From positions 1 through 26,588 of the IMG/VR virus record IMGVR_UViG_3300042989_000024: a DNA stretch of 26,588 bases, one strand, 5' to 3'. This DNA is from a virus. Each line of letters starts with the position of its first letter. Positions within the stretch are counted from its first letter, which is position 1. Shown here piece by piece: positions 9,817-24,673 of the stretch. A program made the position numbers and the translations under genes. The notes beneath the pieces were generated by a model. It was not told where the DNA came from, did not search any database, and saw nothing but the letters and a program-made list of their open reading frames with translations.

Positions 9817-10545
9817 TTAGTTGTAACCGATGATTCTTGGCCGATTCCCGATGGTCATCGCGCGCCTGAACCTCGGCCGTTGTCCTCTGCGCGAGAGTCT
9901 ATCCCAAACTTTCTGAATTGCATCCATTTTCTTGTCCAGCACCGAACATCGCGAACCGCCTGCACCGAATGAAACCGGACCCCAGAAGCTCGGAAGATTC
10001 TCGGCCATGCGATCCGCGATCTCTTCCGTGGCCTTGCGCTCTTCCGCCGCTGCTGTTGCCTGTCTTGCCGCTTCCTTCTGTTCTTCGCTCAATTCCTGAA
10101 ATGCGAGCATCATGGGAATTAACATATCGATCAAGTAGTGCGAAAGCGGAAAGTGCTCAATCACCAACTTGCCGTCTACAAACTCTTTCGAGATCAACGG
10201 CTGCACGCTCTCATAACGCCCGCGCCAGGGATACTCGCCGGTGATGTAGAGTCCCGTGAACGCGTCAAACGTGTTCGCGTAATACATTTCTGGCGTGCCG
10301 TACTCGACTGGCGCTTTCCAGCGCATGATCACCCAACAAGGCATCCCATGGCACTGATAGCGGTCGCGATATTCAAGGCGTTCGTTGCCGTACTTGTCAC
10401 TCCAGAGATTGCCGATGCGGATGAGTTGCGATTGACCCCATACGATCTTGAAGTGCGGATCGCCCCATTCGTTCGTGCCGAACAGTGCCGTGAGCCGCGC
10501 CTGAAACTCTGGCGGGGTTTCGCGTGTCTCTGGATACGCGTCCAT
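9817..10545 (-). CDS. conserved phage protein of unknown function, 242 aa
   Basis: The ATG overlaps the stop of the GroES-like gene as TGATG, so the pair is translationally coupled. The protein starts MDAYPETRETPPEFQARL and contains the blocks HFKIVWGQSQLIRIGNLW (34-51), CHGMPCWVIMRWKAPVEYG (66-84) and TGLYITGEYPWRGRYESVQP. A Gln/Glu/Ala helix at about 150-178 is followed by EEIADRMAENLPSFWGPVSF and a basic C-terminus. I believe this layout recurs in phages next to capsid and co-chaperonin genes, without assigned function. The helical arm may mediate oligomerisation; this is speculation. Confidence 0.8.
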   Translation of the reverse strand: MDAYPETRETPPEFQARLTALFGTNEWGDPHFKIVWGQSQLIRIGNLWSDKYGNERLEYRDRYQCHGMPCWVIMRWKAPVEYGTPEMYYANTFDAFTGLYITGEYPWRGRYESVQPLISKEFVDGKLVIEHFPLSHYLIDMLIPMMLAFQELSEEQKEAARQATAAAEERKATEEIADRMAENLPSFWGPVSFGAGGSRCSVLDKKMDAIQKVWDRLSRRGQRPRFRRAMTIGNRPRIIGYN

Positions 10546-10904
10546 CACGCGCCTTCGGGTATCTCTTCAAACACGCAATAGCATTCCTCGAAGCGCAGAA
10601 GTTTCAGTCCAGGGACGCCCGTGAATTCCTCCAACTGGCGGAAGGTCATCGCGAAGCGCGTGTACAGAATCAAATCCCCGACTTCGAGTGGAATTCCCTC
10701 GGCAACCGCAACTACGTGCCCTGACTGCGAAACGATTCCCGCGTCCATGCCAGGTGTGCTTGCTCCCGGCAGGACCACGCCTTCCGCTGTTTTTCTTTCC
10801 TCTATCTCGATGGGCTTGACCAGCACCCATTTGTTCAGCGGCCTAGCGCGATAAATCTTTTTCTTCGCTACCGGAATTTCGGTGAGCGTTGCTGTCTCTT
10901 TCAT
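10545..10904 (-). CDS. GroES-like co-chaperonin, 119 aa
   Basis: The start is the ATG overlapping the nuclease stop as ATGA, with GGTGATCAC upstream. The protein matches the GroES layout: RPLNKWVLVKPIEIEERKTA (21-40), a mobile loop with the hydrophobic tripeptide VVL at 43-45 (EGVVLPGAS), GHVVAVAEGIPLEVGDLILY (62-81), and a closing strand LLRFEECYCVFEE. In GroES and T4 gp31 such a loop docks on GroEL. No GroEL gene is in the window, so the partner is presumably the host chaperonin. Clients are probably the capsid or a neighbouring virion protein. The length is a little above the usual 95-105 aa because of an N-terminal extension. Confidence 0.85.
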   Translation of the reverse strand: MKETATLTEIPVAKKKIYRARPLNKWVLVKPIEIEERKTAEGVVLPGASTPGMDAGIVSQSGHVVAVAEGIPLEVGDLILYTRFAMTFRQLEEFTGVPGLKLLRFEECYCVFEEIPEGA

Positions 10905-11622: not shown

Positions 11623-12972
11623 TTAACTCGTTACGCTGGGAACTGCAGCACTGGAGATGTAGCAACCTGCTTTCAAATTCGAGTTGAACAGGTTCCCAAA
11701 AAAATTGTAAAAGAATATCGAACTAGTCAAGTAGCTTCCCTGCCCCGTGAAGTCGGGGATAGGCATCGTGGTGACGCCATCGCCGAAGTCATAGAGTGAA
11801 GGTTCCACTGTCTCGATGATCCCCCAGGTTTCCGGGCACACCGCGTCAAGCCGTCCCTGACGCGCGGTGTAGCTCACGTTCAGTTCACGCCCGCCGAAAG
11901 TCGGCGACATGTGCTTCTTCACCATGTCCAGGGCCTTATCGCCCGGTGGGACATAGTTCTGTTGCAGCACGTTCGTGTAGAGCTGCGTGACGGCCAGTTC
12001 CTGATCCGGCCCGCAAATCCACTCGAAGTCCGAGACCGCTTCGTTGTCCGGCCCGAGGCCGCGGCCAATCAGAATTTCCGCCTTGTAGGCATCGGTTGTG
12101 GTGATGGGCTGGCCGTTCTTGTTGATGTTCGGCGTGGAGAGTTGCCCGGGATAGGTTGAGCGCGCCAGATTGAGCACACTTCCCGTGTTGCTCGCGACCT
12201 GATAGGAATAAATCCCCTGCAGGCCCGAGTTGAGCGCGCCGCTTGATCCCTGGATCATCACGTAATCGCCGTATGTGGTTCCCGTTGGCAGAGCCGTCGA
12301 GAAGTACACGGTGTCATTCGCGCCGTCCACGTAGGAAACAGTGGCAGTCGAGACGCCAGTGGTGCGCGCCGCGCCGCCTTCAGCCGCGAAGAACTGCACG
12401 ACTTGCTGTTCCTGGAATTGGTTCGCTTGGCCACCGAGGCCAACGATGGACGATGGGTTTGCCCCACCGAGTGTGTTGTTGCTGATCGTGGTGGACCCGA
12501 GTGCGGGCAGTTGCACGATAGCGCCGGCGCCATCGCTCAGGAACTGAGCGTCAACGCCCTGCATGAAGGAGTTGAAAGAGTTCTTCAACTCTTCGGCGCG
12601 CAGCGAAATCAAGCTGCGCTTCGGGCCATTCGTCGCGATGCGCGCGAGATAAGTGATCTCGCAGCCGGCGAACAAGCCGATTGGCGCAAGGTCTCCAGCG
12701 ACCCAAGTCGAGCCAGTCCCGCGGCCCAGAGCGTCACCGTTGCCGGTGGCCTGGAAGATCGCGGAGCCTGACTGCATGCGCACGGGGATACGGAAGGAAG
12801 GACGCGCCGTTCCACCAGCTTGCGTGGTTACAGCGGTTGGAAATGTCTTGCTCTTTTTCTTGAAGAAATTGTAAACCGAGTGGCCTTTGAAGACCAAATC
12901 GGGAATACCTTTCGCAAACGACTCAAGCTCAACGGCTTCTACGGCCGCTTCTGCAAGTGGATTCGCTGCCAT
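11623..12972 (-). CDS. major capsid protein, 449 aa
   Basis: The ATG is preceded by GAGGTAGTGTACCC. The sequence has an N-terminal helical segment (AANPLAEAAVEAVELESFAK), a basic segment FFKKKSKTFPT, then a beta/alpha body including FRIPVRMQSGSAIFQATG, LRAEELKNSFNSFMQGVD and a C-terminal strand region GGRELNVSYTARQGRLDAV. Length, position after portal and scaffold, and the helix-rich E-loop-like and spine-like order fit an HK97-fold capsid protein. It is probably the most highly expressed gene here. Downstream come the HNH nuclease and GroES-like genes. Confidence 0.85.
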   Translation of the reverse strand: MAANPLAEAAVEAVELESFAKGIPDLVFKGHSVYNFFKKKSKTFPTAVTTQAGGTARPSFRIPVRMQSGSAIFQATGNGDALGRGTGSTWVAGDLAPIGLFAGCEITYLARIATNGPKRSLISLRAEELKNSFNSFMQGVDAQFLSDGAGAIVQLPALGSTTISNNTLGGANPSSIVGLGGQANQFQEQQVVQFFAAEGGAARTTGVSTATVSYVDGANDTVYFSTALPTGTTYGDYVMIQGSSGALNSGLQGIYSYQVASNTGSVLNLARSTYPGQLSTPNINKNGQPITTTDAYKAEILIGRGLGPDNEAVSDFEWICGPDQELAVTQLYTNVLQQNYVPPGDKALDMVKKHMSPTFGGRELNVSYTARQGRLDAVCPETWGIIETVEPSLYDFGDGVTTMPIPDFTGQGSYLTSSIFFYNFFGNLFNSNLKAGCYISSAAVPSVTS

Positions 12973-13198: not shown

Positions 13199-13672
13199 CT
13201 AGGCGCAAGGAGTTTTTAACAAGGTGTTATGACCGCAGGTAGGACATTTACTTCGGAGTGCTCTTTTAGCCGCAGATTCGGCCATGCCTTTTCGCTTCAG
13301 CATTTCGCATTCCTCTGGCGAAACGTATTTCTTGATAGAGATTTTCACCACTTTGCCTTCAGGTGCATCACTCTCTATGTTTGAAAAACCAACTGCCACA
13401 TCTGTAGAAGCCCACAACATCTCATCCACAATTTCATGTATCTCCTTGGGGGTGAAAGTGAACCATTCCCCATTGATTCGATTCGCCGTATATTTCTCGT
13501 GAAGCGCATATTCCATGACGTGATAGTTCGACAATTTCCATACTGCGATTACTTCAATCCGAAACGGTAATAGGATGCCTAGTTCGCTCACGCGAATCGT
13601 GGGCTTGGAAGTTTTGCCGATCTTATACCACTTGAACGTGCGGGACCCGATGAGGTAGACGTAGCCAGCCAT
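13199..13672 (-). CDS. GIY-YIG superfamily (T5orf172/MUG113-type) nuclease-like protein, 157 aa
   Basis: The start is the ATG six bases after TATACT, not the longer GTG frame, which would run through a terminator. Residues 3-70 show the family pattern: GYVYLIGS, WYKIGKTSKPTIRVSEL, an E in the middle, YALHEKYTANRINGEW. This matches the DNA-processing subfamily named after T5orf172 and Mug113. The C-terminus has CPTCG plus a final Cys (143, 146, 156), a likely zinc knuckle for DNA binding. It lies between virion genes but behind its own terminator and promoter-like element, the arrangement of a moron or mobile nuclease. Activity on DNA is inferred from the family. Confidence 0.8.
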   Translation of the reverse strand: MAGYVYLIGSRTFKWYKIGKTSKPTIRVSELGILLPFRIEVIAVWKLSNYHVMEYALHEKYTANRINGEWFTFTPKEIHEIVDEMLWASTDVAVGFSNIESDAPEGKVVKISIKKYVSPEECEMLKRKGMAESAAKRALRSKCPTCGHNTLLKTPCA

Positions 13673-13675
13673 GAG

Positions 13676-13686
13676 AATAGTATATA
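13676..13686 (-). promoter_or_regulatory. TATATACTnTT element upstream of the GIY-YIG gene
   Basis: The minus strand reads TATATACTATT, with TATACT as a -10-like hexamer. It ends four bases before the ATG, and TATACT lies six bases from it, so a transcript starting at the usual distance would begin at or next to the start codon. The element follows the T-run of the terminator by two bases. No -35 match is visible. Confidence 0.55.
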
Positions 13687-13688
13687 CC

Positions 13689-13729
13689 AAAACAAAACCG
13701 GCGTGCCACTCTCGCGAGCAACACGCCGG
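13689..13729 (-). terminator. rho-independent terminator after the Ig-like gene
   Basis: Arms CCGGCGTG (13698-13705) and CACGCCGG (13722-13729) form a perfect 8-bp stem around a 16-base loop, which itself holds CTCGCGAG. On the minus strand the stem is followed at once by TTTTGTTTT (13697-13689). It would end the transcript coming from the portal, scaffold, methyltransferase and Ig-like genes. Confidence 0.8.
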
Positions 13730-13753
13730 ATGCCCATCTCCCGTAAAGGATTC

Positions 13754-13801
13754 TAACACGCTTCAGCGCGCCGCTGGGACTGGGCTCAACGGCGCGCGTT
13801 A
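13754..13801. repeat. GC-rich inverted repeat after the Ig-like gene
   Basis: GCGCGCCG (13766-13773) pairs with CGGCGCGC (13790-13797) around a 16-base loop; TAAC (13754-13757) and GTTA (13798-13801) could extend it past a bulge. No T-run follows. It lies between the gene stop and the terminator and may be an auxiliary hairpin protecting the mRNA end. Confidence 0.45.
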
Positions 13802-13822
13802 GTGACCCCTGACCAACTCGCT

Positions 13823-14143
13823 TTACGCCGTCTGCGCGAAATCAATCGCCGTCAATGCGGGAGGGGGCGGCTGCACGATGGTGATCGTGTGCGCGGCCTT
13901 CACTGTTCCCACGCTCGCATCCGCTGAGATAGCGGTAAGCTCCAAATCGAAGCTCGCGGCAGTCGCGCCAACGGGCACAGCGGCCTCGCAAGTCAGGCCG
14001 TCAGGCGATGGCGTGATGATCACGCTTGAATCGCTCGCGGACCACTTAGGCACTTCGCCGGCTGCGAGTGCGCCATTCGGTGGCGTCAAGATCGATGCGA
14101 ATGTTCCGCTTGTTCCCGCAACTATCGAAAAATCGGTTGGCAT
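13823..14143 (-). CDS. Ig-like virion protein, 106 aa
   Basis: The start chosen is the ATG with GGAGGATGT upstream (MPTDFSIVAGTSGTFASIL). The same frame stays open 45 codons further up to a GTG at 14278, and that extension reads like a charged amphipathic helix (KKLNRIEREVECLHRDVQRL), so a longer form of 151 aa or a fusion is possible. The body is a bacterial Ig-like (Big2-type) pattern: VPKWSASDSSVIITPSPDGL, then CEAAVPVGATAASFDLELTA, ending in a Pro run (QPPPPALTAIDF). Such proteins commonly decorate capsids. The neighbours are the methyltransferase and the terminator. Confidence 0.7.
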   Translation of the reverse strand: MPTDFSIVAGTSGTFASILTPPNGALAAGEVPKWSASDSSVIITPSPDGLTCEAAVPVGATAASFDLELTAISADASVGTVKAAHTITIVQPPPPALTAIDFAQTA

Positions 14144-14287
14144 ACATCCTCCAAGTTGAATGAAATCCACGCGATGCAATGAAAGAATTCTGAGCAGCCG
14201 CTGAACGTCTCGGTGCAAGCACTCCACTTCACGTTCAATACGATTCAGCTTCTTAGAGTTCTTTTTGTCGAACCACACGCGGACATC

Positions 14288-14929
14288 CTAGCGCACTGAT
14301 GTTACGGACGCAACACGCATTTCCAAGATTCTCTCCGCATAATCCGCAACGCAATTGGCCAGTTCGGGAGGGATGGTGGCTGCTAGGGATGCACAACCCT
14401 CTGCATTCTGCCTGCGCGATGCGCGCTCGTTCTTTGTGCCCCATCCTGGCTTTCCTTTGTGCTCACGCTGCCCCATTGCCTTGCGGGTCATGCCTTTGAT
14501 GATTCCTTGGGGCATAATTGGCGGTACTCCTGAGCCCCACAAATAGAACGACCCGCAGTGATGCACCGCATTGCCTACGAATTGCTGCGCTGCCCGCACA
14601 TTCTCCATCACGTAAGGCACGCCAGCCGCTTCGCACAATTCCCGCGTGTGGTTGAACAGCTTGATGCCTAGTTCTGGGTACGGCGGATGCGGGTGGAAGT
14701 GCTTCATGCCGTGAACACTGAACTGCTCGCAGGGAGAACTCGCTACGATGAGATCGTAAAGTCTGTTATTTGGAGCTAACTGAAATTCCAGAATGTCTTT
14801 CTTGATGAAGATGCAACCCTTCGGAATTTCTGGTGGCTCAACTAGGTCTAGGCCAACGCATTCCCATCCCCGCGCAGCAAACGCCTTGCTCCAGCCCCAG
14901 CGCCCGCAGAATAGGTCCAGAAGTCTCAT
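14288..14929 (-). CDS. compact cytosine-C5 DNA methyltransferase, 213 aa
   Basis: Motif I is LLDLFCGRWGWSKAF (3-17). Motif IV is SSPCEQFS (64-71) with catalytic Cys67. The MEN of motif VI is at 108-110 (PYVMENVRAA). A C-terminal PPELANCVADYAERI matches the conserved final helix. At 213 aa the protein is much shorter than bacterial Dcm enzymes (usually 300 or more), so the target-recognition domain is minimal; specificity cannot be read. ATG was preferred to a GTG one codon upstream. No Shine-Dalgarno is visible and a -10-like element lies nine bases upstream, so the message may be nearly leaderless. Likely role: modification of phage DNA against host restriction. No restriction enzyme gene is adjacent. 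Confidence 0.8.
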   Translation of the reverse strand: MRLLDLFCGRWGWSKAFAARGWECVGLDLVEPPEIPKGCIFIKKDILEFQLAPNNRLYDLIVASSPCEQFSVHGMKHFHPHPPYPELGIKLFNHTRELCEAAGVPYVMENVRAAQQFVGNAVHHCGSFYLWGSGVPPIMPQGIIKGMTRKAMGQREHKGKPGWGTKNERASRRQNAEGCASLAATIPPELANCVADYAERILEMRVASVTSVR

Positions 14930-14935
14930 CACGTC

Positions 14936-14946
14936 AAGAGTATATA
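14936..14946 (-). promoter_or_regulatory. TATATACTnTT element upstream of the methyltransferase
   Basis: The minus strand reads TATATACTCTT followed by GACGTG and the ATG. The larger block CGTCAAGAGTATATA (plus strand, 14932-14946) recurs exactly at 24659-24673. Distance to the start leaves almost no leader. No -35 hexamer is seen at 16-18 bases. Confidence 0.55.
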
Positions 14947-14950
14947 CTAT

Positions 14951-16276
14951 CTAGCGTTCGTAGGGCACGGGAGTTTGGCTCCCCTTCAGATACGCTTTGC
15001 CGAGGATGATGTACTCGCTTGGCGTGTTCTGGATATCCACTTCCGAGCGCTTGTAGACCTTTCCCGCTACTGCCTTGGGCGCTGGGACCACTGGTGCCAC
15101 TGTCTTGCCATTCCCCGCCGCTGGACGCCTCACTGCGGCTGCAGGCGCTGCGCTGGTGCGCTTGGCGAGACTCGGGTACATCTCGTTACGCAGCGCGCGG
15201 AACTGCTCAGGCAGCATCTCGCGGAACTTGTCATGCACGAAGCGGGCATGGCGCGCTCGATCACCTTTCGCGCGAATCGCCTTCGCGGCGCGAAGATAGG
15301 GCTTGTCCTCACCCATCGCTTTCCAGATACGCGATTCCAGCGTTTGCTTGAAGGTGTTGCGCCCTTTCTCGGGCAGCTTCAGATCCTTGAAAAGTTGCAT
15401 GGTGATGCGCGAGAGAATCGGAGAGTTCATGCGATTCACGTCGCCAGTGACAGACTCCGTGTACATCTTTTGCTTCTCGGTCTGCACTTCGGCGCGTTCG
15501 CGGGCTACTGCTTCGCGTTCAGGATCGCGCGCTGTCTTCGTTTCGAGATTCTTGCTCGCGTGGTCCTTCGCGCCGCGGAGCCAAGCCACTACCTTCGCCT
15601 GGAGATCGTAGGCTTCCTGGCCCTTCCCGTCCTTGATGAGCGCGAGAACGCTGTCAGCGGAATCGAACATGCCCGCTTTGTCGAGGCGCGTCACCATCGC
15701 GGGAATGATAGCGGTATCGAATTGCTTCAGGTCACGGCCGGCGAGGAGTTCAAGGCCGTTCTGCATCGCGGTAACGAAAGAATCGGGATTCGCTTCATGG
15801 AGTTGCGTGAGTAGCGCGGGATCGCCTTGCGAGAATTGCGTGATCTCGTTGCGATAATCCTCTACTTCGCTTTGCATCTCCCCGATGCCCTCTTCACCGC
15901 CGAGCGATTCAAGGATGGCTTTGGTTTGGCGCGCTTCGCGTACACCGCCAGGGAATTCCGTCTCAAACGCTTTGCGATGGAAGTGATCGTCGGCCCACTT
16001 CTTGCCGATCTCGGGATTGCTCTTCTTCAAGTCCGCGATTTGTTTGCGTGTTGCGGCGTCTGTCTTGCGACTGTCCGCGTCAATATCGCCGAGTAAATCC
16101 TCTTCCTCGCCTTCGGGCGGGGTTTCAGTTTCTTCTGGTGGCGTTTCGACAACTTCAGTTTCGACGCCTTCAGTTGGGGTTTCGACTTCTGTTACTGGTG
16201 TTTCGACAACTTCAGTACCCGTTCCTGCGCCGTCCGCTACTGCGGCTGTTCCTGCTCCTGCGATTTCTTCTGGCAT
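14951..16276 (-). CDS. putative scaffolding protein, 441 aa
   Basis: The ATG follows GGGGAGGAATAAAAAATC. Residues about 15-65 are acidic and repetitive, built of V-E-T-P units (TEVVETPVTEVETPTEGV). A predicted helical body follows (LESLGGEEGIGEMQSEVEDY; FSQGDPALLTQLHEANPDSF), with a Lys/Arg-rich C-terminal half (RAAKAIRAKGDRARHARF) and a Pro/Ala linker near 380-405. Acidic N-terminus, coiled helices, basic C-terminus and a place between portal and capsid are typical of scaffolding proteins of short-tailed phages. No protease motif was seen. It could instead be an internal core protein. Confidence 0.65.
   Translation of the reverse strand: MPEEIAGAGTAAVADGAGTGTEVVETPVTEVETPTEGVETEVVETPPEETETPPEGEEEDLLGDIDADSRKTDAATRKQIADLKKSNPEIGKKWADDHFHRKAFETEFPGGVREARQTKAILESLGGEEGIGEMQSEVEDYRNEITQFSQGDPALLTQLHEANPDSFVTAMQNGLELLAGRDLKQFDTAIIPAMVTRLDKAGMFDSADSVLALIKDGKGQEAYDLQAKVVAWLRGAKDHASKNLETKTARDPEREAVARERAEVQTEKQKMYTESVTGDVNRMNSPILSRITMQLFKDLKLPEKGRNTFKQTLESRIWKAMGEDKPYLRAAKAIRAKGDRARHARFVHDKFREMLPEQFRALRNEMYPSLAKRTSAAPAAAVRRPAAGNGKTVAPVVPAPKAVAGKVYKRSEVDIQNTPSEYIILGKAYLKGSQTPVPYER
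16143..16216. repeat. short direct repeats encoding V-E-T-P units
   Basis: GTTTCGACAACTTCAGT occurs at 16143-16159 and again at 16200-16216, with diverged copies between. They encode the acidic T-V-V-E-T segments of the scaffold-like protein. Such repeats expand and contract easily. Confidence 0.7.
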
Positions 16277-16309
16277 GATTTTTTATTCCTCCCCGATGTT
16301 TACCCGATT

Positions 16310-18910
16310 TTACTGAACTCGTGTTGGCGCTTGTTCCGGTACTCCCGTGGGAATCGGTTCTGCCGGCCCCTTCGCACCAGCGGGAGCAGGCACTGGTGGC
16401 GGTGCTTCTGCCCCCGCAGATGGCGTGACTCCCGCTTTCTGGAGAATCTGTTTCGCCGCGCCCTGATCGATCATTGCCACGTCCTTGTATCCTACGCTCA
16501 CGCTGGGCGGCTTGCCAACCTGTTGCGCTTGTGCTGCCTTCGCCTGAGCCGCTTCAACGTGCGCATCGAAGTGTAACGCCACGTTCTCCCATCCCTTTGG
16601 ATTGGACCGCTTCTCGCGGCGCCCATCATCGCTGTTCAAGAACTGCCAGCAAGTGGCTGCTTCGGTCACGTTGTCATCACGCTTCGCGTCAATCGCGAGC
16701 GAGCAAATCTCTTGAGGCATGGCCGCAACTTCCGCTTCGGCTTGCTGCAGCACTGCAGGGTCCACGGCCATTGCCTTTATCTGCGTGATCTTCGCTTGCG
16801 CTTCCATAACCGCGGGATTCGGAATGGGTTGTGTCCCAAGCATGATCTGAATCTCGCCCAATTGTTTGTTGTGCGAGGCAACCTGGGGAATATACACATC
16901 GCGCTGACTAGTCATCGCCTGCATGTATTCGAGGTTCGCGGCGTTGAACATCACTTCCGCGAGTTGCGGATTCTTCGCGGAAGCATCAAATATCTGCATG
17001 AACGCGTTCTTGCGCTGTGTATAGGTCTCAGGAAAATTCTCATCGCTTTCCGCGAAGCACAGGATATTCGCTTTGAGGTCGTTCACTTCCAACCGGATCG
17101 CTTGGCCCCCAGGAATGCGCTCGCTGATTGAGCCATCGCGGCACTTCGCGCCCCAGCGCACCAGTTGTTTCATGCTCTTGGCTTCCGCGTTCTTCATGGA
17201 GTGCCAGGTTGGCGCGAGCCGGCCGAGTGCGGAGTCTCGCTGTGTGGCGATTGCGACACCGCTATCCGCAGTTCCGGTATCGCCACCAGCGAGTGCGGGA
17301 TACGCTCCCGAGAGCAGCTCCGCGAGATCCCCAGCGTACTTGTTGATGAAGTCCGCGAGACTCACGGGCTGAGGTACGGCGGGTTCCACGAAGATCAATT
17401 CAGAGACAGGCATGCCAGCTTGGCGCTTGAAGGCACCTACATCCCCGGGCACGTTCGTTTGTCCACGGATCGCTTCCACGTTGAAGGCGCGCGAATCCAT
17501 CCACTTCTTCGGCACCGCGCGCACGAAATAATCATTCATCAAGTCGAGCCAGTTGTTGAGGCGCTTCTGCACCGGCAGCGTGGAGGTGCCCATCGCGTTA
17601 CGGTTCTGTCCGTCGCCCGAGTACGCCTGCCCAATGGCCCAGGAATCATCCATGGACTCATTTCGTGCGTAGCAGAAAGTCTCGCCAGCATAGACCACGA
17701 GACAACCATTCGGGAACATCTCGATCAGTTCATCACGTACCGCTTCATCCTTGATATTCATCAACCACGAAGGTCGCATCCAAGCGCGCTGAATGGTCAC
17801 ATCCTCGGCCACGGAATCGCTGGTCACATACGTGGACTGCATCCCGAGTTTCACGTTCTGGCGTGCAAGCCGTCCAATCTCTCCATGCGCGGATTGATTC
17901 ACGCCCGCCTTGATGTCATCGGCAACCCAAGGGAACATGCCCTTCGCGCGCGAAGTGTCCACTTCGGTTTCGTAGATAAACACATCCGCTTCATCCAGGT
18001 TGTTCGCGGACATCGGCACGATTTTTGTTTCGAGTTTGCCGTGAGCGCTGCGGACTTCCTGGCCGCGCGGCGTGCGTTTGACTGGCTCTTCTTCTTCCTG
18101 AGCCTCTTCGGCTTGGTCCACTTCGCCGGCAGTTTCGCTTTCTTTGGCCGCTTCCTGCTCGACGTTGCTCAACTCTTCTTGTGACTCTCCCGCGGCGTTG
18201 CCTTCTTGCGCGGTCTCTGACGCTTCGGGCGTAGCCGCGGCTGCAGCACCTTCTGTGGCCGTCTGCCCCGCTTCAATCGGCTCGTTCTCGGGCACAAGAT
18301 CATCAGGTTCGTCATCCTCTTCCCAACCAAACTTCTGGCCGTTCTTCTCATAGCGCGACCAGTACGCGAAGCGCCCATCTGTCCAGAGATAGCGCGAGGC
18401 ATCGGTCTGGATCATGATGAGGTCATTGTTACGCGAGATCACCTTCACGAACTTGTCAGCGGATTCGGCGGCCGTAATCTGCGCGTCAGAGTCAGCACGT
18501 TGTGGAGCAAAGCGCGTATTGGGTACAGTGCGCGTCAGCGCAGCGATAATCATCTGCGCGCGAGCGGAATAAATGTTTGTGGGAAGTAGCGCGAGGTCCA
18601 TCTGCATCGAAGGACCGTAGCCAGTTGATTCGCCCGGTATAACCCAACCACCACCGCGTTGCGGAATGAGAAACTGAAAACCACGGTAGAACAATGCGGC
18701 TTCCCATGCGGCGATCACTTCGATCAAGCGCGCGGGATAATCCCTCTTCTGCGCGTCTTTGAGGCGGTCCTTCAGCGCGTTCTTCTGCGTATCAGTAAGT
18801 TTCGCGTTGGGGACGGGACTCCACTCAAGGCCGGCGAGCTGACCAATGGAATACTTCGGCTCGTCCTGCTCTTCGTCGCTTCCCGTGTAATTGTGGACCG
18901 CTGTCGCCAA
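16310..18910 (-). CDS. portal protein, 866 aa
   Basis: The start is uncertain: TTG at 18910 is the first usual start after an upstream stop, with no clear ribosome binding site. Residues 40-190 and 300-680 give a portal of the podovirus (P22-like) type: LPTNIYSARAQMIIAALT, YLWTDGRFAYWSRYEKNG, LPVQKRLNNWLDLMNDYF, DLAELLSGAYPALAGGDT, and SGVAIATQRDSALGRLAPTW. Residues about 197-276 are an acidic Glu/Ala/Gln-rich low-complexity insertion. The C-terminal 150 residues are Ala/Gln-rich helix, then a Pro-rich tail. The portal forms the dodecameric DNA channel and docks terminase. Its neighbours, terminase upstream and scaffold downstream, agree. Confidence 0.85.
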   Translation of the reverse strand: MATAVHNYTGSDEEQDEPKYSIGQLAGLEWSPVPNAKLTDTQKNALKDRLKDAQKRDYPARLIEVIAAWEAALFYRGFQFLIPQRGGGWVIPGESTGYGPSMQMDLALLPTNIYSARAQMIIAALTRTVPNTRFAPQRADSDAQITAAESADKFVKVISRNNDLIMIQTDASRYLWTDGRFAYWSRYEKNGQKFGWEEDDEPDDLVPENEPIEAGQTATEGAAAAATPEASETAQEGNAAGESQEELSNVEQEAAKESETAGEVDQAEEAQEEEEPVKRTPRGQEVRSAHGKLETKIVPMSANNLDEADVFIYETEVDTSRAKGMFPWVADDIKAGVNQSAHGEIGRLARQNVKLGMQSTYVTSDSVAEDVTIQRAWMRPSWLMNIKDEAVRDELIEMFPNGCLVVYAGETFCYARNESMDDSWAIGQAYSGDGQNRNAMGTSTLPVQKRLNNWLDLMNDYFVRAVPKKWMDSRAFNVEAIRGQTNVPGDVGAFKRQAGMPVSELIFVEPAVPQPVSLADFINKYAGDLAELLSGAYPALAGGDTGTADSGVAIATQRDSALGRLAPTWHSMKNAEAKSMKQLVRWGAKCRDGSISERIPGGQAIRLEVNDLKANILCFAESDENFPETYTQRKNAFMQIFDASAKNPQLAEVMFNAANLEYMQAMTSQRDVYIPQVASHNKQLGEIQIMLGTQPIPNPAVMEAQAKITQIKAMAVDPAVLQQAEAEVAAMPQEICSLAIDAKRDDNVTEAATCWQFLNSDDGRREKRSNPKGWENVALHFDAHVEAAQAKAAQAQQVGKPPSVSVGYKDVAMIDQGAAKQILQKAGVTPSAGAEAPPPVPAPAGAKGPAEPIPTGVPEQAPTRVQ

Positions 18911-18953
18911 AGAAAACGCCAGTTCTCACCCGATTGCTTGCGTTTCTCGTTCC

Positions 18954-19139
18954 CTACTTTGCTGCCGCGAAGGCCAAGGCCATGCGCGCTTTCTTTCCGA
19001 TTTTTCCAGGCTTATGTTTGTCGTGCACTGCTTCTTCGTGAACCGAACGGCCATGCGCTTTCGCGATTCGGGTGAAGGAACCTTTCGTTCCCGCGTGCTT
19101 CTCGCGCTCCGCTTCGTGCTGCATCCAGCGATTCGCCAT
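18954..19139 (-). CDS. small basic phage protein, 61 aa
   Basis: The ATG has GAGAGGGGAGCAG upstream. The protein (MANRWMQHEAEREKHAGTKG, then FTRIAKAHGRSVHEEAV) is rich in Lys, His and Ala, mainly helical, and ends KKARMALAFAAAK. Small proteins with this W-x-x-x-A-x-x-x-PG-K/x-A pattern are common immediately before portal genes of phages; their role is unknown. DNA or terminase contact is possible given the charge. Confidence 0.75.
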   Translation of the reverse strand: MANRWMQHEAEREKHAGTKGSFTRIAKAHGRSVHEEAVHDKHKPGKIGKKARMALAFAAAK

Positions 19140-19159
19140 CTGCTCCCCTCTCTACCCGA

Positions 19160-19366
19160 TCAACTCTTTTTCATCGCGCTTGCGATCCGCGATTTCTTCT
19201 CGAACAGTTTGCACCAGCCGCCAGGGTCAATGATGCCCTCAACTCTCGCGCAGTGGCGCGGCGCGATACGCTCGAAGTACGTACATTGCGCGCAGTGCTC
19301 GGGACCGTGCGCCTCCTCTTCATAGCGCGCTTCAGCCTTCGAGACTTTCTGGATTGCTTCAGCCAC
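19160..19366 (-). CDS. HiPIP-like four-cysteine protein, 68 aa
   Basis: The GTG start overlaps the stop of the 96-aa gene by eight bases. Cysteines 25, 28, 39 and 52 follow C-x2-C-x10-C-x12-C (HCAQCTYFERIAPRHC, then VEGIIDPGGWCKLFEKK). The G-W-C-x-L-F ending resembles high-potential iron-sulfur proteins, which hold a [4Fe-4S] cluster. Unlike exported HiPIPs it has no signal peptide, so it would be cytoplasmic or in the virion. It sits in the small-gene run between terminase and portal. A zinc site is an alternative; the sequence cannot decide. Confidence 0.7.
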   Translation of the reverse strand: MAEAIQKVSKAEARYEEEAHGPEHCAQCTYFERIAPRHCARVEGIIDPGGWCKLFEKKSRIASAMKKS

Positions 19367-19649
19367 GTTTCAACTCTTCAATGGGGATGGCACGTGATCT
19401 CCCTAAGTTCGTGATCTTCGCGACAATCGCGTTCTTGTCATCGCGAAAGTGAATCTCTTTCTCTGGTACGCCAGCATCAATGTGAATGTCCTTGCCTAAG
19501 AACGTCATTAGCGCGAGCGGCGTGAGCTTCTTGATCTCTTGAACTTGTTCTTCTTTCATCGCGAGATATGCGATGCCTCTCGCGCGACGAAGAACCTGCA
19601 CGCCCATCATGGGAGTGATTGACGCACCATTGGCTGATATTTCGATCAT
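19359..19649 (-). CDS. hypothetical protein, 96 aa
   Basis: The ATG overlaps the stop of the 55-aa gene as ATGA, with AAAGGCGCGGCG upstream. The frame stays open further upstream, but the coupled ATG fits best. The protein is mixed alpha/beta (MIEISANGASITPMMGVQVL, ARGIAYLAMKEEQVQEIKKL) with a charged C-terminal half. No Cys or membrane segment. Family not recognised; role probably in head assembly or packaging by position. Confidence 0.7.
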   Translation of the reverse strand: MIEISANGASITPMMGVQVLRRARGIAYLAMKEEQVQEIKKLTPLALMTFLGKDIHIDAGVPEKEIHFRDDKNAIVAKITNLGRSRAIPIEELKRG

Positions 19650-19813
19650 CGCCGCGCCTTTCGGAAGGCTTCCGCCATGCGCGAGGAACCCTTCCGCATG
19701 TGGCCCATCGCTGGGTTGGCGTGGAGTTCCGAGTGCATCTTTTCTTTCTGTTTGCCCGTAAGTGGTGAACCAGAAGAGAAAAGATACTTCACTTGTCTGC
19801 GAGTCCAAGGCAC
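19646..19813 (-). CDS. small conserved phage protein, 55 aa
   Basis: The GTG start has AGGAGCGCTCT upstream and the frame reads MPWTRRQVKYLFSSGSPLTG, KQKEKMHSELHANPAMGHMR, then a basic end. The pattern PWTxxQVKYLxSxGSPLTxxQKxKMxxELHxNPxxGH is one I know from small proteins encoded between terminase and portal in many phages; function unknown. It is basic and helical. A shorter ATG start exists 25 codons in, but it would lose the conserved part. Confidence 0.8.
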   Translation of the reverse strand: MPWTRRQVKYLFSSGSPLTGKQKEKMHSELHANPAMGHMRKGSSRMAEAFRKARR

Positions 19814-19828
19814 AGAGCGCTCCTGAGA

Positions 19829-20257
19829 CTACGCTTCGCTTACACCAGGCATTGATTCGCTGGACCTGCCGCCTGCGTACTCTTCGGCTTCGTTATCCGG
19901 CGTTTCGGTCTCTTCGTTCTCGCCGCCAGTCACACCCATTGCTTTGCCCATGTGCTCGTGGGCTTCTGCGTGAGACTTGTGGCGTGAATGATGGGGAGGA
20001 CCGTCGCCATGGTGAGAGGTCACGTGATGCGTGCCTGACGCTTCGTGGTGCATGTGGCCGATAGCGGTCGCGGGACCGTGCAGGCCAACGTGCTCTTCAA
20101 TCGGCGTCTTGGTTGGAGGATTGTGCGGCCCTGGATTTGGTGCAGTGCCCTTTGCGGGCTCTTCGGTCGCCGGTCCCTTTTTTGCTGAGAGTTCGTCATG
20201 AAGGCGCGCCCGACTCGCGCTGTGATGCGTTGTGCCGTCCTGAGCTTGCATGGCCAT
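19829..20257 (-). CDS. histidine-rich protein, 142 aa
   Basis: The ATG has AAGGAGAACTAGC upstream and follows the previous stop directly. The N-terminal half is polar and Pro-rich (PNPGPHNPPTKTPIEEHVG). The central part is dominated by His (GHMHHEASGTHHVTSHHGDG, PPHHSRHKSHAEAHEHMGKA), and the C-terminus is acidic. A G-x-H-x-V-T-S-x-H-x-D-G core with alternating His recurs in phage proteins near terminase genes. The His clusters could bind metal (zinc, nickel or copper). Mostly disordered; likely cytoplasmic or packaged. Confidence 0.75.
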   Translation of the reverse strand: MAMQAQDGTTHHSASRARLHDELSAKKGPATEEPAKGTAPNPGPHNPPTKTPIEEHVGLHGPATAIGHMHHEASGTHHVTSHHGDGPPHHSRHKSHAEAHEHMGKAMGVTGGENEETETPDNEAEEYAGGRSSESMPGVSEA

Positions 20258-20258
20258 G

Positions 20259-20624
20259 CTAGTTCTCCTTTGCTTCCGTCGCTGTCTTTGCGGCTGCTTC
20301 AATTGCTACGCGCCGTGCGATTGCATCGTTTTCTTCCTGAGCCTTGATTCCTCTGCGTAAGATTCGCTGCCACGGCGTGCCTCCCTCTTCGATAGGTGTG
20401 GGTGGCGGCGAGTTGTCCGGTTCAAGCGAAACATTCTGAAGTGCGGGCGTGAGCAGGTAGCGCGTTCTGGTCAGCTCATCGCGCAATCTTTCGTTCTCTT
20501 CTATAGCATACTTCAGTTGTTCGGCGTGAGACTTTTCTAGTCGCACGATTTCTTCGCGGTGATGTTGCTCGCGTTTTTCAAGTTCCTGTTCAAGCCACAG
20601 CGTGTGACGCGAAGCGAATCTCAT
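20259..20624 (-). CDS. coiled-coil protein, 121 aa
   Basis: The start is the ATG overlapping the terminase stop as ATGA, with GAGGTTTCAGAA upstream; an in-frame GTG seven codons earlier is less likely. Residues about 10-60 form a Glu/Lys/Arg-rich coiled coil (LEQELEKREQHHREEIVRLE). A Pro linker (SPPPTPIEEGG) leads to an Ala-rich helical C-terminus. Translational coupling to the terminase suggests a packaging or portal-assembly partner. No named family. Confidence 0.75.
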   Translation of the reverse strand: MRFASRHTLWLEQELEKREQHHREEIVRLEKSHAEQLKYAIEENERLRDELTRTRYLLTPALQNVSLEPDNSPPPTPIEEGGTPWQRILRRGIKAQEENDAIARRVAIEAAAKTATEAKEN

Positions 20625-22279
20625 TTCTGAAACCTCTTCATCCACGAGGGCACAATCTTTGGAGGCGCATCCGCTTTCCTCTGCCGCGCTTGGTCCAGAT
20701 TATACTCCCGAAACTGTTCAATGTGACGCCGCATAGGATCTTTAATTCCTGCCAGTTTTTCTCTGAGTAATTGCTCTTTAGGCTTCTCACCTTCGAGCAA
20801 AACACCAGCGACGGCGTAGCGCAATGCATCAGCCGCGTCGTCCTCTAAACTAGTGCCTTTTGGCTTTATCACGTCTTCCATCGAACACGTCGTACCATTG
20901 CCGCGGACCAAAAGTGGGATTGCGTCTACACACGCAGGGCATTCTCCTTGAAGCAGAAACCATTCGTCTGTCTCCAACATCTCGTACATCTTTGTCCATC
21001 CCGCGATGCGGTCATTGTTTGAACGCGTCGGTCGCGGAAGTCCAGCGGCTTGGAGTAAATCCCCAATCTCATCCGCTACTGTGCGATTGGAAACTGTGCG
21101 GTTGAAACGCTCCCAGGATAAATGGATGCTATCAACATCCCAAGCATAACCAGCTTCGCGTCCCTGTTCGTCCTTGAGCCGCGGAATCGCAAGCAGGAAA
21201 GCCTCAACTTGTTGCTCCACTGTTTTTTCTTGAAGCACCACTTCCTTCAGCGTGACATTCACTAGCCGAGGTTTTTCACCTTCAAAGCGGGGTTTCAATA
21301 CAGCTTTTGTCCAGAAGGTCATCACCGAAAAGTGCGAGAACCCCCAATCCCAACTCGCCCAAACAGGCTGCCACTGTTCAAATAGGAAAGCATTCTTCGG
21401 AAGTATGTGACGCTTTGGGTCCCAATTCGAGAAGTACTGCCCGCTAACGGTTTCGAGCCTGCCCCAACGGATCTTGTCACGTAGCGGTGACTTCTCCAAG
21501 GATCGTATATACCCTTTGTCGCGTATCAGGATGGGATTCTGGTCCACGGTCGAGTGTATATACTGATAGTCGCGCGAATCGAAGGCGTCCGGGTCCATCC
21601 CGTGACAGGGTTGGTGGTCTATCCACACTTTCTTGATCCAGCCCCACCCGATGCCCATGGGGTTCGTTACGCCGGCCATGCACGGCCGCGCGCCGTGAAT
21701 CGTGCAGCGGTTGCGCCCTTCCATCGCGTCATAGATGAGATAGGGGAACTCGCCGAGCTCCTCGAAGCCGATGAACACGAACTCAGTGGAGAGATATTTC
21801 CCCACGTCTTCAATGCGGTCGCACGCGCCGAAGTAGAGTTTGCTCTGCTTCCACACTTTCTTTTGCTCGCCAGTTTCGGGATCAATGATTGGTGTGTCTG
21901 TGTCGGGGTCCCAGTCATCCACGAGAACAGGAGGGAAGTACACGATGTGGTCTGACTTGTTGTAGGTCCCGCGTTCTTGCGACCCGCGTTCGTACAGCGA
22001 CTTAGGGATATCGTTCTCGAACTTATCTAAAACAGTGCGCTTCAGATCGGGAATCGTGCGGCGAAGGATGATGCTGTTCGAGCCCGGGAACTCGATGCAG
22101 TGGATGATCGCTTCCATGAGAAGCGGCTTGCTCTTGCCGCTCCCGAATCCCCCGACGTGCAGCCGATGTTTCGCGGGAAGACAGTGCCAGGAATTTTGAT
22201 GCTCCCATGGGCGATAGAAGTCCGTGATGCGAAGCACTTCATCTTCGCGATAGTTAAGAGTAGGAGAGACGCTTGCCAC
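20621..22279 (-). CDS. terminase large subunit, 552 aa
   Basis: The GTG start is the first start codon after a stop and has no strong ribosome binding site. ATPase: Walker A GGFGSGKS (43-50), the following ILRRTIPDLK, and Walker B FVFIGFEE (167-174) with the catalytic Glu. Nuclease: WASWDWGF with Asp311, WDVDS (380-384) and DDAADALRYA (480-489) supply the acidic metal ligands of the RNase H-like fold. The protein drives ATP-dependent DNA packaging into the prohead through the portal. Length is typical (about 450-600 aa). The stop overlaps the coiled-coil gene. Confidence 0.92.
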   Translation of the reverse strand: MASVSPTLNYREDEVLRITDFYRPWEHQNSWHCLPAKHRLHVGGFGSGKSKPLLMEAIIHCIEFPGSNSIILRRTIPDLKRTVLDKFENDIPKSLYERGSQERGTYNKSDHIVYFPPVLVDDWDPDTDTPIIDPETGEQKKVWKQSKLYFGACDRIEDVGKYLSTEFVFIGFEELGEFPYLIYDAMEGRNRCTIHGARPCMAGVTNPMGIGWGWIKKVWIDHQPCHGMDPDAFDSRDYQYIHSTVDQNPILIRDKGYIRSLEKSPLRDKIRWGRLETVSGQYFSNWDPKRHILPKNAFLFEQWQPVWASWDWGFSHFSVMTFWTKAVLKPRFEGEKPRLVNVTLKEVVLQEKTVEQQVEAFLLAIPRLKDEQGREAGYAWDVDSIHLSWERFNRTVSNRTVADEIGDLLQAAGLPRPTRSNNDRIAGWTKMYEMLETDEWFLLQGECPACVDAIPLLVRGNGTTCSMEDVIKPKGTSLEDDAADALRYAVAGVLLEGEKPKEQLLREKLAGIKDPMRRHIEQFREYNLDQARQRKADAPPKIVPSWMKRFQK

Positions 22280-22316
22280 GCGAGAAGGGTATCACAAATA
22301 AACTAAGTGCCGTCCT

Positions 22317-22544
22317 TCACCAGGTTTGAAATGGTTCCAGTGGCACAGGACGTTCCTTGCCCGCCAAATCAAACATCTCCTGAACGAATTGGAATGTCTC
22401 TACGTAATCTCCAGACCACCCGTGTGTTCGGACAGCCTGCAATAACGTACTCAGAAACTCATCAGTGAGTTTCGGTTTGAGTTCCGCATCGAGACGATCA
22501 GATTCCTTTTGATAAGCCAGTTCTTTTTCCCCAAGTTCTCCCAT
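22317..22544 (-). CDS. hypothetical protein, 75 aa
   Basis: The ATG chosen has GGAGAACATGAT upstream; the frame also opens at an ATG 6 codons earlier and at a TTG (22577) next to the promoter-like element. The product is helical and acidic (MGELGEKELAYQKESDRLDA, LTDEFLSTLLQAVRTHGW). It is the gene directly before the large terminase. It may be a packaging helper; no helix-turn-helix of a small terminase is evident. Confidence 0.65.
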   Translation of the reverse strand: MGELGEKELAYQKESDRLDAELKPKLTDEFLSTLLQAVRTHGWSGDYVETFQFVQEMFDLAGKERPVPLEPFQTW

Positions 22545-22578
22545 ATCATGTTCTCCGTTCATGGTTTCCCACGCCAAG

Positions 22579-22633
22579 AACAGTATATATCACTTCCGCG
22601 CGCCTAGCTCTGGATAGTATGGGATATATACTG
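22579..22633 (-). promoter_or_regulatory. TATATACTnTT element with 11-bp inverted repeat before the terminase genes
   Basis: The minus strand reads TATATACTGTT at 22589-22579. The plus-strand arms CAGTATATATC (22581-22591) and GATATATACTG (22623-22633) are perfect reverse complements, 31 bases apart. The arrangement suggests a promoter plus a pair of operator-like sites facing each other. It fills the gap between the zinc-ribbon-like gene and the 75-aa gene. Confidence 0.55.
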
Positions 22634-22635
22634 CG

Positions 22636-22830
22636 CTACGCTTCGCCGCGAATCTCTTCCAGTGTCGCGCCGCACGCGAGGCACATCGCTTTTTCAATTG
22701 TCACATAGGTCGTCTTGTCCGGTTCTGTTGGATTGAGCGCTCCTGTCGATGACATCGACCCGATTTTGTGCCCTTGTTTCAGGCAAACCATTTTTGCTAT
22801 CTCCGCCATCGTTGCTGTTTCCAGTTTCAT
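22636..22830 (-). CDS. zinc-ribbon-like small protein, 64 aa
   Basis: The ATG has AAGGAGAAACG upstream. Cys16, His21, Cys50 and Cys53 (MVCLKQGHKIG and MCLACGATLEEI) give a C-x4-H...C-x2-C pattern seen in small phage zinc-ribbon proteins. The start lies inside the 3' end of the upstream gene in another frame (137-base overlap). The longer TTG-initiated frame is unlikely. Possible DNA- or RNA-binding role. Confidence 0.75.
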   Translation of the reverse strand: MKLETATMAEIAKMVCLKQGHKIGSMSSTGALNPTEPDKTTYVTIEKAMCLACGATLEEIRGEA

Positions 22831-23083
22831 TCGTTTCTCCTTGTCTCGCGCCAATCGCGATGAAATTGACTTTGTTCGGCCCGAGTTCCACTTGCTTGAA
22901 CTCTAGTGTCGGGAACTTCGCGTCAAGATGCTCGATCACGCGCTCTAGGGACGCTTCAATGTCCGCTTCGCTGTAGCCGCGTTTTGGCGGCGCGCGAAAG
23001 ACGTGTGGCATAACCTTCTCGCCCACGATAATCTTCACTTCGAGGCGCTTCCAGAGCTTGCTTCCGTCTTTCGCTGGCTTCAT
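22694..23083 (-). CDS. hypothetical protein with polar C-terminal tail, 129 aa
   Basis: The ATG lies three bases after the upstream stop. Residues 1-80 look folded (LWKRLEVKIIVGEKVMPHVF, DIEASLERVIEHLDAKFPTL, then KVNFIAIGAR). From residue 81 the protein is a Gln/Asn/Asp/Gly-rich tail that overlaps the zinc-ribbon gene in another frame; the overlapped gene's ribosome binding site encodes Q81-T84. Family not recognised. Confidence 0.65.
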   Translation of the reverse strand: MKPAKDGSKLWKRLEVKIIVGEKVMPHVFRAPPKRGYSEADIEASLERVIEHLDAKFPTLEFKQVELGPNKVNFIAIGARQGETNETGNSNDGGDSKNGLPETRAQNRVDVIDRSAQSNRTGQDDLCDN

Positions 23084-23085
23084 CG

Positions 23086-23562
23086 CTAGAGTTCTTTGAG
23101 CGAGAATTTTCCGCCGTTCTTGTTGAGCAACCCTGCATTCTTCATCTTCTCGATCACACCGTATGCCGTGCGAATGTCGCAATGCGCTGCTGCCCGGAGT
23201 TGCGCTGCGGTCATTTCTCCGTGTGCCATCAGATCAATAAACTCCGCTTGCCGGCCTCCCAGTCGCGTCTTCATCATCTCCCACTTCGGACTCAGTACGG
23301 AAGTGTGATGCGTAGGACGACCGTCCTCAGGAAGACCTTCGACCTCGACGCGGGAGATTTCGCCGAAGATCATTTTCAGCGCTGCATAAAATGGTTCCAA
23401 CTGGTGACGCAACGCTCGAATTGCTTGTACGGCATCTTTCGCAGCTAACTTTGCCGTTGCGGCTTCGTCTTTCGCCTTTTGGAGTTCTTGTTCAAGTCCC
23501 GCGATCTCGCGGCGCAAACGCACAGCATCATCGGGCGGGCCTGGGAGTAAAGGCTGAGTCAT
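23086..23562 (-). CDS. coiled-coil and winged-helix protein, 158 aa
   Basis: ATG start with GCGGGGAATGACGC upstream. Residues about 13-55 form a coiled coil (LRREIAGLEQELQKAKDEAA). Residues 103-158 look like a winged helix: GRQAEFIDLMAHGEMTAAQL, RTAYGVIEKMKNAGLLNKNG and GKFSLKEL. DNA binding is likely. The gene lies three genes upstream of the large terminase, and dimerising plus DNA-binding domains would suit a small terminase, but a transcription regulator is equally possible. Confidence 0.7.
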   Translation of the reverse strand: MTQPLLPGPPDDAVRLRREIAGLEQELQKAKDEAATAKLAAKDAVQAIRALRHQLEPFYAALKMIFGEISRVEVEGLPEDGRPTHHTSVLSPKWEMMKTRLGGRQAEFIDLMAHGEMTAAQLRAAAHCDIRTAYGVIEKMKNAGLLNKNGGKFSLKEL

Positions 23563-23565
23563 GCG

Positions 23566-24192
23566 TCATTCCCCGCTGGCATGTTCCGCGATGGCCGCGA
23601 ATCCCTTGAAGGCACGTTCGAGTAGGCTGGATGTTCCACAACGCTCGATCTGGCGAATGGCCTTGAGTGTCAGGCAGATCGCTTCCATGTTGAGGCGCAC
23701 CGCATTGAATTGATCGCACGCGAGCACGTAATCGAAGTTCTGATTCGTTTTCCGATTCACCCAGTTAAGCGCGTTCTTCCGATGCACGTTGAGCGCTTGG
23801 AACATCTGGATGTCACCGCCCTTGTCGGGGTGATAAATGAGCGAGAGCCGGCGATAGGCTGCGTCAATCTGCGCTTCGGTCGGCGCCGGATCGTGGATGT
23901 CGAGCGCATCCTGCCAAGAGAAATCCTCTTTCACTTTGCGCGTGAAGTAGAGTGCCACACCCACATCAAGCGGCTCAATCCCTGGCGTCATGTTCCCACG
24001 CTGATTCTCAGGCACGTTGCTGGAGATCACAAATGACGGTGACTCTATGCGCGTCAATTCCTTCTCTAAGGCATCGCGGTATTGATTCGCTGTTTTCTTC
24101 CACGCCGCTTGAGGCTTGCGGTCTTGCGGCCGAGTCCGCGGCCATCCTTCCGGCCACGAAAGCGGATAGCGCTCTTTCAGTTCGCTTTTCAT
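23566..24192 (-). CDS. J-domain (DnaJ-like) protein, 208 aa
   Basis: ATG start with CGGGGGAACG upstream. Residues about 95-145 are a J domain: AQIDAAYRRLSLIYHPDKGG with the HPD triad at 121-123, followed by FQALNVHRKNAL. The flanks (WPEGWPRTRPQDRKPQAAW near 13-31, VGVALYF near 77-83, FDYVLACDQFNAVRLNME near 153-170, and IERCGTSSLLERAFKGFAAI) match a phage protein layout in which, to my memory, VAVYF is followed closely by FACD. The J domain would thus be inserted in that fold. HPD stimulates DnaK ATPase, so the partner is presumably host DnaK. No DnaK gene is present. Confidence 0.8.
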   Translation of the reverse strand: MKSELKERYPLSWPEGWPRTRPQDRKPQAAWKKTANQYRDALEKELTRIESPSFVISSNVPENQRGNMTPGIEPLDVGVALYFTRKVKEDFSWQDALDIHDPAPTEAQIDAAYRRLSLIYHPDKGGDIQMFQALNVHRKNALNWVNRKTNQNFDYVLACDQFNAVRLNMEAICLTLKAIRQIERCGTSSLLERAFKGFAAIAEHASGE

Positions 24193-24217
24193 CGTTCCCC
24201 CGATATTTTGCGGCGCG

Positions 24218-24613
24218 TCAGGCGTGTGGCCTGAATTTCGCTTTCTTCTTTTCCGGTTTCGCTAGTTGACCACCGCCAAGGACGCTTCGTTTGAAACTGC
24301 AAACCCCGCATTGGCAGGAAACATCGTGTTGATCAGCCGCTCGATCTGAGGAGACACTTGGGGCGATTGGTTTGGAATCGCGCGCAGATCCAGCACTTCC
24401 GATACGCGGGCGAGAGCGCCGTCCCAAAAGAGATAGGTCTCGAAGCCCAGTGGCGTCCTTCTGATCACGAACTTCATGGCCTGCCTCCTTCCCTTCAAGC
24501 GCTCTGCCACACGCTATGCGAATCCATTCCGCAAGTTTCAGTCCCTTGGCCTTCGCCGCTTTCTGATACGCCGCATGCACTGCATCATCGAGCTTCAATA
24601 AGTATGTTTTCAC
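24218..24613 (-). CDS. ribbon-helix-helix-like protein with long tail, 131 aa
   Basis: The GTG at 24613 has AAGG nine bases upstream; a TTG nine bases earlier is an alternative. Residues 1-40 (MKTYLLKLDDAVHAAYQKAA, KAKGLKLAEWIRIACGRALE) fit a ribbon-helix-helix DNA-binding dimer. From residue 46 the frame continues as a Ser/Arg/Asp-rich tail with SCQCGVC and a basic end (AKPEKKKAKFRPHA), overlapping another gene. The true end may be as annotated. Two promoter-like elements lie just upstream. Possible autoregulator. Confidence 0.6.
   Translation of the reverse strand: MKTYLLKLDDAVHAAYQKAAKAKGLKLAEWIRIACGRALEGKEAGHEVRDQKDATGLRDLSLLGRRSRPRIGSAGSARDSKPIAPSVSSDRAADQHDVSCQCGVCSFKRSVLGGGQLAKPEKKKAKFRPHA
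24262..24477 (-). CDS. nested small protein, 71 aa
   Basis: The ATG has AAGGAGGCAGGCC upstream, one of the best ribosome binding sites in the window. The frame reads MKFVIRRTPLGFETYLFWDG, ALARVSEVLDLRAIPNQSPQ and so on to TAG. It is wholly inside the 3' part of the RHH-like gene in a different frame. It looks folded (alternating hydrophobics, aromatic residues). Family not recognised. Confidence 0.6.
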   Translation of the reverse strand: MKFVIRRTPLGFETYLFWDGALARVSEVLDLRAIPNQSPQVSPQIERLINTMFPANAGFAVSNEASLAVVN

Positions 24614-24633
24614 GCGCCTCAACCTTCACAAAG

Positions 24634-24673
24634 AAGAGTATATATGGAAATGGTCCTGCGTCAAGAGTATATA
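24634..24673 (-). promoter_or_regulatory. two tandem TATATACTnTT elements before the RHH-like gene
   Basis: Minus-strand copies lie at 24644-24634 (TATATACTCTT) and 24673-24663 (TATATACTCTT), 29 bases apart. The upstream copy continues as GACG, giving TTGACG (24664-24659), which stands 16 bases before the downstream TATACT: a good sigma-70-like promoter. Transcription would start about 17 bases before the GTG. Confidence 0.6.

Follow-up and report, generated by a model that had tools for sequence, protein, structure and literature searches.

The window analysed here is the entire 26,588-bp stretch of the IMG/VR virus record IMGVR_UViG_3300042989_000024 (G000 among the compared phages), which has ~55% GC and all of whose called genes lie on the minus strand. 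An earlier note had drawn attention to five intergenic copies of an element, TATATACTnTT, all oriented with transcription. A scan of the whole window recovered the five exact minus-strand copies where the note had placed them (positions below) and no exact plus-strand copy; at a tolerance of one mismatch the scan gave 8 matches against 0.12 expected, a count that 0 of 100 shuffles reached, and the motif read backward, taken as a control pattern, gave 0 matches. All five copies are intergenic, provided that the GIY-YIG gene starts at the ATG at 13672 and not at an upstream GTG, and a good -35 is present at copy 4 only (TTGACG, 16 nt, TATACT), also as described. The copies (boxes) and the features around them are:

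13199..13672, minus strand: GIY-YIG-type (T5orf172/MUG113) nuclease gene behind copy 1 (Pfam PF13455, E 4e-15; PF10544, E 3e-11)
13676..13686, minus strand: box copy 1, TATATACTATT, in the arrangement TATACT-N6-ATG
13698..13729, minus strand: intrinsic-terminator-like hairpin directly upstream of copy 1, a 14-pair stem followed by TTTTGTTTT
14288..14932, minus strand: cytosine-C5 DNA methyltransferase-like gene behind copy 2 (PHROG 363, E 1.4e-12), with leaderless-type spacing
14936..14946, minus strand: box copy 2, TATATACTCTT, inside the perfect 10-bp palindrome AGTATATACT (14939-14948), in the arrangement TATACT-N6-GTG
20621-22279, minus strand: terminase gene, after the 81-aa ORF
22317..22562, minus strand: 81-aa ORF, function not assigned, the first gene after copy 3
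22579..22589, minus strand: box copy 3, TATATACTGTT, in the intergenic stretch ahead of the 81-aa ORF and the terminase
22625..22632, plus strand: inverted partner of copy 3, TATATACT, 43 bp from it centre to centre
24218..24613, minus strand: ribbon-helix-helix (RHH; CopG/Arc-like) protein gene directly downstream of copies 4 and 5 (MKTYLLKLDD...LAEWIR, with a C-terminal CxxC motif)
24634..24644, minus strand: box copy 4, TATATACTCTT, whose TATACT (24642-24637) serves as -10 in a TTGACG-N16-TATACT promoter
24663..24673, minus strand: box copy 5, TATATACTCTT, overlapping the first bases of TTGACG, which serves the RHH gene as -35

The methyltransferase-like gene additionally matches the Pfam DNA_methylase model just under the cut-off. 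Copy 3 and its inverted partner are conserved with the same spacing in the relatives G001 and G002; the 43 bp within this pair (22579-22632), which precedes the terminase operon, equal about four helical turns, and looping is possible. The tandem arrangement of copies 4 and 5 is likewise the same in G001 and G002 and has other spacing in G005, G006 and G009, there being no fixed geometry across phages. The strong hairpin upstream of copy 1 together with GTTTTGGTATATACTnTTCTCATG forms a cassette (13672-13729) that recurs in G006 at ~12040-12098, in front of a gene whose N-terminal sequence is dissimilar to that of its counterpart in the window, which suggests a portable terminator-promoter unit on inserted genes. 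Elsewhere in the window, the product of 10545-10904 resembles by eye a GroES-type co-chaperonin and 23566-24192 encodes a DnaJ-like domain just below the Pfam cut-off (E 7.7e-6).

IMG/VR was searched with the terminase and capsid proteins, and the 27 related records obtained, several of them 59-70 kb long, were scanned whole; enrichment of the element was computed across 24 phage records, namely the window and 23 relatives. Among INPHARED phages no match was found to the window by megablast or to the capsid protein by tblastn, and the best matches of the terminase there have <30% identity; the clade is without a close relative in this annotated phage collection. When three RHH proteins served as queries for additional IMG/VR scans, every hit was either a phage already in the set or a contig identical in the RHH gene, and all six contigs matched by a tandem-box pattern search belong to the window's clade. 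Searches for the host gave no hit for a capsid profile in GTDB genomes, one weak match for the terminase in 297 genomes from the phylum of an Acidobacteriaceae MAG, and mixed phyla for the epimerase of G010.

The two nearest relatives have many copies of the exact 11-mer (7 in G001 and 6 in G002), which is rare in the others. When 8-mers were ranked by their observed to expected ratio, the palindrome GTATATAC and its frame-shifted neighbours headed the list for the near and middle relatives: GTATATAC occurs 12 times against 0.12 expected in 89 kb and 33 times against 0.3 expected in 374 kb (about 100-fold in both), and less extremely in the far group (6 against 0.8). On account of this ranking we take the palindrome as the conserved entity and TATATACTnTT as the version of one clade. 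A set of 31 sites in front of genes yielded the consensus RnR-GTATATAC-YnY, with matching preferences on both sides (R/Y at -1/+8 in 28 and 30 sites, and at -3/+10 in 26 and 26). Such a symmetric extension of the flanks would be expected of a dimer and accounts for the 'n' of CTnTT, which is the unconstrained position of the palindrome. Copies 3, 4 and 5, i.e. three of the five in the window, are without the first G of GTATATAC, and their left half-site is therefore imperfect.

In eleven records 32 of 46 GTATATAC sites are intergenic against ~15% expected (p = 1e-16), and most sites lie within ~50 nt upstream of start codons; G000, G001, G007 and G010 have 5-12 sites each, mostly intergenic over the group. 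The in-gene sites of the window, in the terminase and a 1526-aa gene, recur at the corresponding codons in relatives: that at 4948 is kept in G009 and G018 and that at 21505 in G001, and these two occurrences of GTATATAC are hence explained by protein conservation. Over the whole set at least four in-gene sites fall at codons shared with relatives.

The earlier note had read the element as a promoter class that might need a phage or modified host polymerase, and omitted the option of an operator. Its reading holds to the extent that the element marks promoters and usually provides their -10. A T follows GTATATAC on the gene side only at 11 sites and on the other side only at 1 (p = 0.006), which points to an additional constraint, namely that TATACT be formed as a -10. 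To judge from their sequence the promoters look host-type, several with leaderless spacing: the TAnnnT placed ~12 nt before the start codon in leaderless sigma-70 promoters is seen, as TATACT-N6-ATG/GTG, at no copies other than 1 and 2, and the spacing at copies 3 and 4 is longer. Leaderless genes with TAnnnT at such a spacing are found in several phyla and comprise 13% of the genes of Acidobacteria (PMC3160421), and because copies 1 and 2 match that spacing we infer leaderless starts there. One could go further and hold that no dedicated regulator exists and that the motif is nothing more than a host -10 (TATACT in the TATATACT context) belonging to leaderless or short-leader promoters. The breadth of leaderless genes across phyla would favor this, as would the -35 at copy 4, the recurrence of TATACT-N6-ATG/GTG at G003 12758 and G006 12081, and the fact that in relatives an ATG follows TATACT more commonly at 6-11 nt than at other spacings. 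We nevertheless consider it unlikely, given that the enriched 8-mers belong to the TATATAC palindrome family and not to other -10 words such as TATAAT, that the palindromic flanks misfit a pure -10, and that no TATACT-N6-ATG peak is apparent in a 275-kb Acidobacteriota sample with 18 TATACT sites, though this may not be the host's phylum. The general TAnnnT-ATG spacing gave no usable peak in the phages and Acidobacteriota DNA.

Two further arrangements likewise misfit a pure -10. The G010 box falls inside the spacer of a promoter whose -35 and -10 are both good (TTGACA-N18-TAGGAT-N7-GTG), and is therefore not the -10 there; ahead of the RHH genes of G003, G007 and G013 the box has TATACC, which makes a poor -10. 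Leaderless promoters taken as the full account agree with copies 1 and 2 and fail in these cases. They lead us to read the element as an operator that in many instances doubles as the source of the -10 TATACT, a reading to which the palindromic core and the coupling to the RHH gene also contribute.

The candidate reader of this operator is the 131-aa product of the gene at 24218-24613. In its AlphaFold model an extended segment (residues 1-9) is followed by two helices (10-23 and 27-40), with a pLDDT of about 80-92 over residues 1-30; DSSP, run on the monomer model, did not assign a strand at 1-9. A Foldseek search of the PDB retrieved CopG (probability 0.98, TM 0.80-0.83) and Arc (0.95) with an rmsd of 1.5-2.0 A, and the other matches, VapB, FitA, NikA, SvtR, AmrZ and MazE6, are all RHH proteins; the E-values are weak (best 0.26, above 0.2) because the domain is short and only ~43 residues align. 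In the predicted fold the N-terminal strand and two helices match solved structures of the RHH (MetJ/Arc/CopG) class, and the long tail is probably disordered. Pfam searches with 13 orthologs detected DUF6290 in 6 (best E 7e-5) and a NikA-like domain in 5 (best E 3e-4), and RHH_1 barely registers, in one of the 13 (E 0.56). Orthologs are present in nearly all relatives with enough sequence; the 39-kb fragment of G018 has a box before a ~65-aa protein discussed below and no RHH gene.

A comparison of the RHH genes with the boxes, counted as GTATATAC or TATATAC either before the gene itself or at the head of its operon some 300-550 bp away, showed that: 1) RHH genes encoding a recognition strand of the LLK(L/V)D type have a box in front or at operon distance in all 11 evaluable relatives, and those with other strands in 0 of 5 (G016, G020/G026, G021, G023 and G024), a coupling with a Fisher p of 2e-4 that is uncorrected for kinship. 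2) The RHH protein of L162, which from its sequence looks chimeric, has a C-terminus like that of the other clade, yet its strand is LLKLD and its boxes are TATATAC, and we argue from this pairing that box type follows the strand rather than kinship. 3) Other words stand before some of the remaining RHH genes: G023 has five copies of GTACCCAC, the last abutting the ATG, which 0 of 2733 comparison windows reach, and G021 has three copies of GTCTTAC at the same place, which 10 of 2737 reach. The two repeats each in G016, G020 and G024 are no more than chance, and the only clear statistical cases of operator switching in this unbiased repeat test are G023 and G021. The sequence coupling and the predicted fold together make it likely that the RHH protein reads the boxes.

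Another phage DNA-binding protein could in principle take this role, for instance the small protein with a DnaA C-terminal/HTH_38 domain that is encoded by G001 and G007 and whose G007 gene itself sits behind a box. We regard this as improbable, as the box stands before the RHH gene in every testable LLKLD-type phage, box type tracks the strand, and RHH dimers, which insert a two-stranded sheet into palindromic or repeated sites, would be well served by a symmetric AT-rich palindrome of 8 bp. A promoter class served by a phage sigma, a phage polymerase or a modified host polymerase is very improbable: the box does resemble the T4 late promoter element, TATAAATA, and only one copy has a good -35, but ten long relatives have no sigma-r4 domain over the cut-off (G009 and G026 gave two weak matches below it), neither G001 nor G010 shows a polymerase in Pfam scans, a search for the T7-type polymerase (PF00940), run without a positive control, found none, the best promoters are ordinary TTGAC / TAnnnT, and palindromic conservation is unexpected for a promoter class. 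The polymerase part of the earlier claim accordingly has no support from these searches, and neither has a T4-late-like promoter.

We therefore favor, as the probable though by no means certain explanation, that TATATACTnTT is the form taken in the window's clade by an operator, RnR-GTATATAC-YnY, which is bound by a homodimer of the phage RHH protein and whose copies overlap host-type sigma-70 promoters. As the right half of the box is the -10 hexamer TATACT in most copies, bound protein would hide the promoter from the host RNA polymerase, and the sign of regulation would be repression. Copies 4 and 5 would make the RHH protein an autorepressor, and copies 1-3 would place the GIY-YIG nuclease, the methyltransferase and the terminase-leading operon under the same control. 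As to timing, when the protein is low the host polymerase would start 6-7 nt downstream of TATACT, and the nuclease and methyltransferase would be expressed from leaderless mRNAs. To judge by the placement of the boxes, the phage appears to run its RHH gene, homing nuclease, methylase and packaging genes by one on/off word.

Beyond the window, a ~65-aa family typified by the motif (C/R)VPLGILxYxxEK...DEVNALL, function not assigned, is directly preceded by a GTATATAC box in 6 of 6 phages (G010 40880, G009 57468, G006 32984, G007 21820, G001 18965 and G018 23985). In G006 (L113:687-1394) and G009 a GIY-YIG domain (Pfam E 4e-7) is fused in frame to an RHH domain behind tandem boxes, and from its architecture this fusion looks like a self-regulating homing nuclease. 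A further G006 ORF (L114:13012-13449, minus strand) has an N-terminus that by eye is HNH-like and an RHH-like C-terminus (HicB E 0.007), and sits ~10 nt behind the palindrome AGTATATACT.

Arc and CopG are autoregulators whose operators are short, palindromic or repeated, and overlap the promoter. With P22 Arc/Mnt and plasmid CopG the present system shares the small RHH fold (by Foldseek), a palindromic promoter-overlapping site and the proposed autoregulation, and by analogy it would work like an Arc/CopG-type autorepressor with extra targets. It differs from them in that the window boxes are scattered over the genome, in the long tail with its CxxC end, and in that no integrase was found in the window's long relatives. 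The RHH antitoxins VapB, FitA and MazE6 and the archaeal virus protein SvtR have a similar fold by Foldseek; unlike the antitoxins, the window RHH gene has no toxin partner identified beside it. In cluster A mycobacteriophages the repressor, a monomer, binds many copies of a short asymmetric 13-bp site, mostly in one orientation relative to transcription and mostly off promoters, and the site sequence diverges between related phages along with the repressor (PMC6550527, PMC9283540). Like those operators and stoperators, the boxes are many, dispersed and in the same orientation, with many copies outside the repressor locus, and diverge together with their proposed reader; unlike them, they have a palindromic core, a proposed RHH reader and positions at promoters, and we do not class them as stoperators, which block elongation away from promoters. 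The GIY-YIG nuclease I-TevI of T4 represses its own gene through an operator that resembles its homing site and overlaps a T4 late promoter (PMC2988022). The promoter of the window GIY-YIG gene is similarly overlapped by a proposed operator, and the G006/G009 fusion lies behind tandem boxes, whereas in the window the nuclease and the RHH protein are separate genes sharing one box.

More tentatively, these observations might describe an uncultured clade, with no integrase detected, that possesses an RHH regulon whose target word can be switched via a few residues of the recognition strand, and in which RHH domains joined to GIY-YIG (and, by eye, HNH-like) nucleases behind the same boxes represent selfish genes that carry or borrow the off-switch of the phage. 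With one small gene and one 8-letter word, the regulatory map of the clade would become readable from sequence alone. Should operator and recognition strand indeed change in concert, the clade would be a natural experiment on DNA reading by RHH proteins, and the nuclease fusions may bear on how selfish genes stay quiet in a phage.
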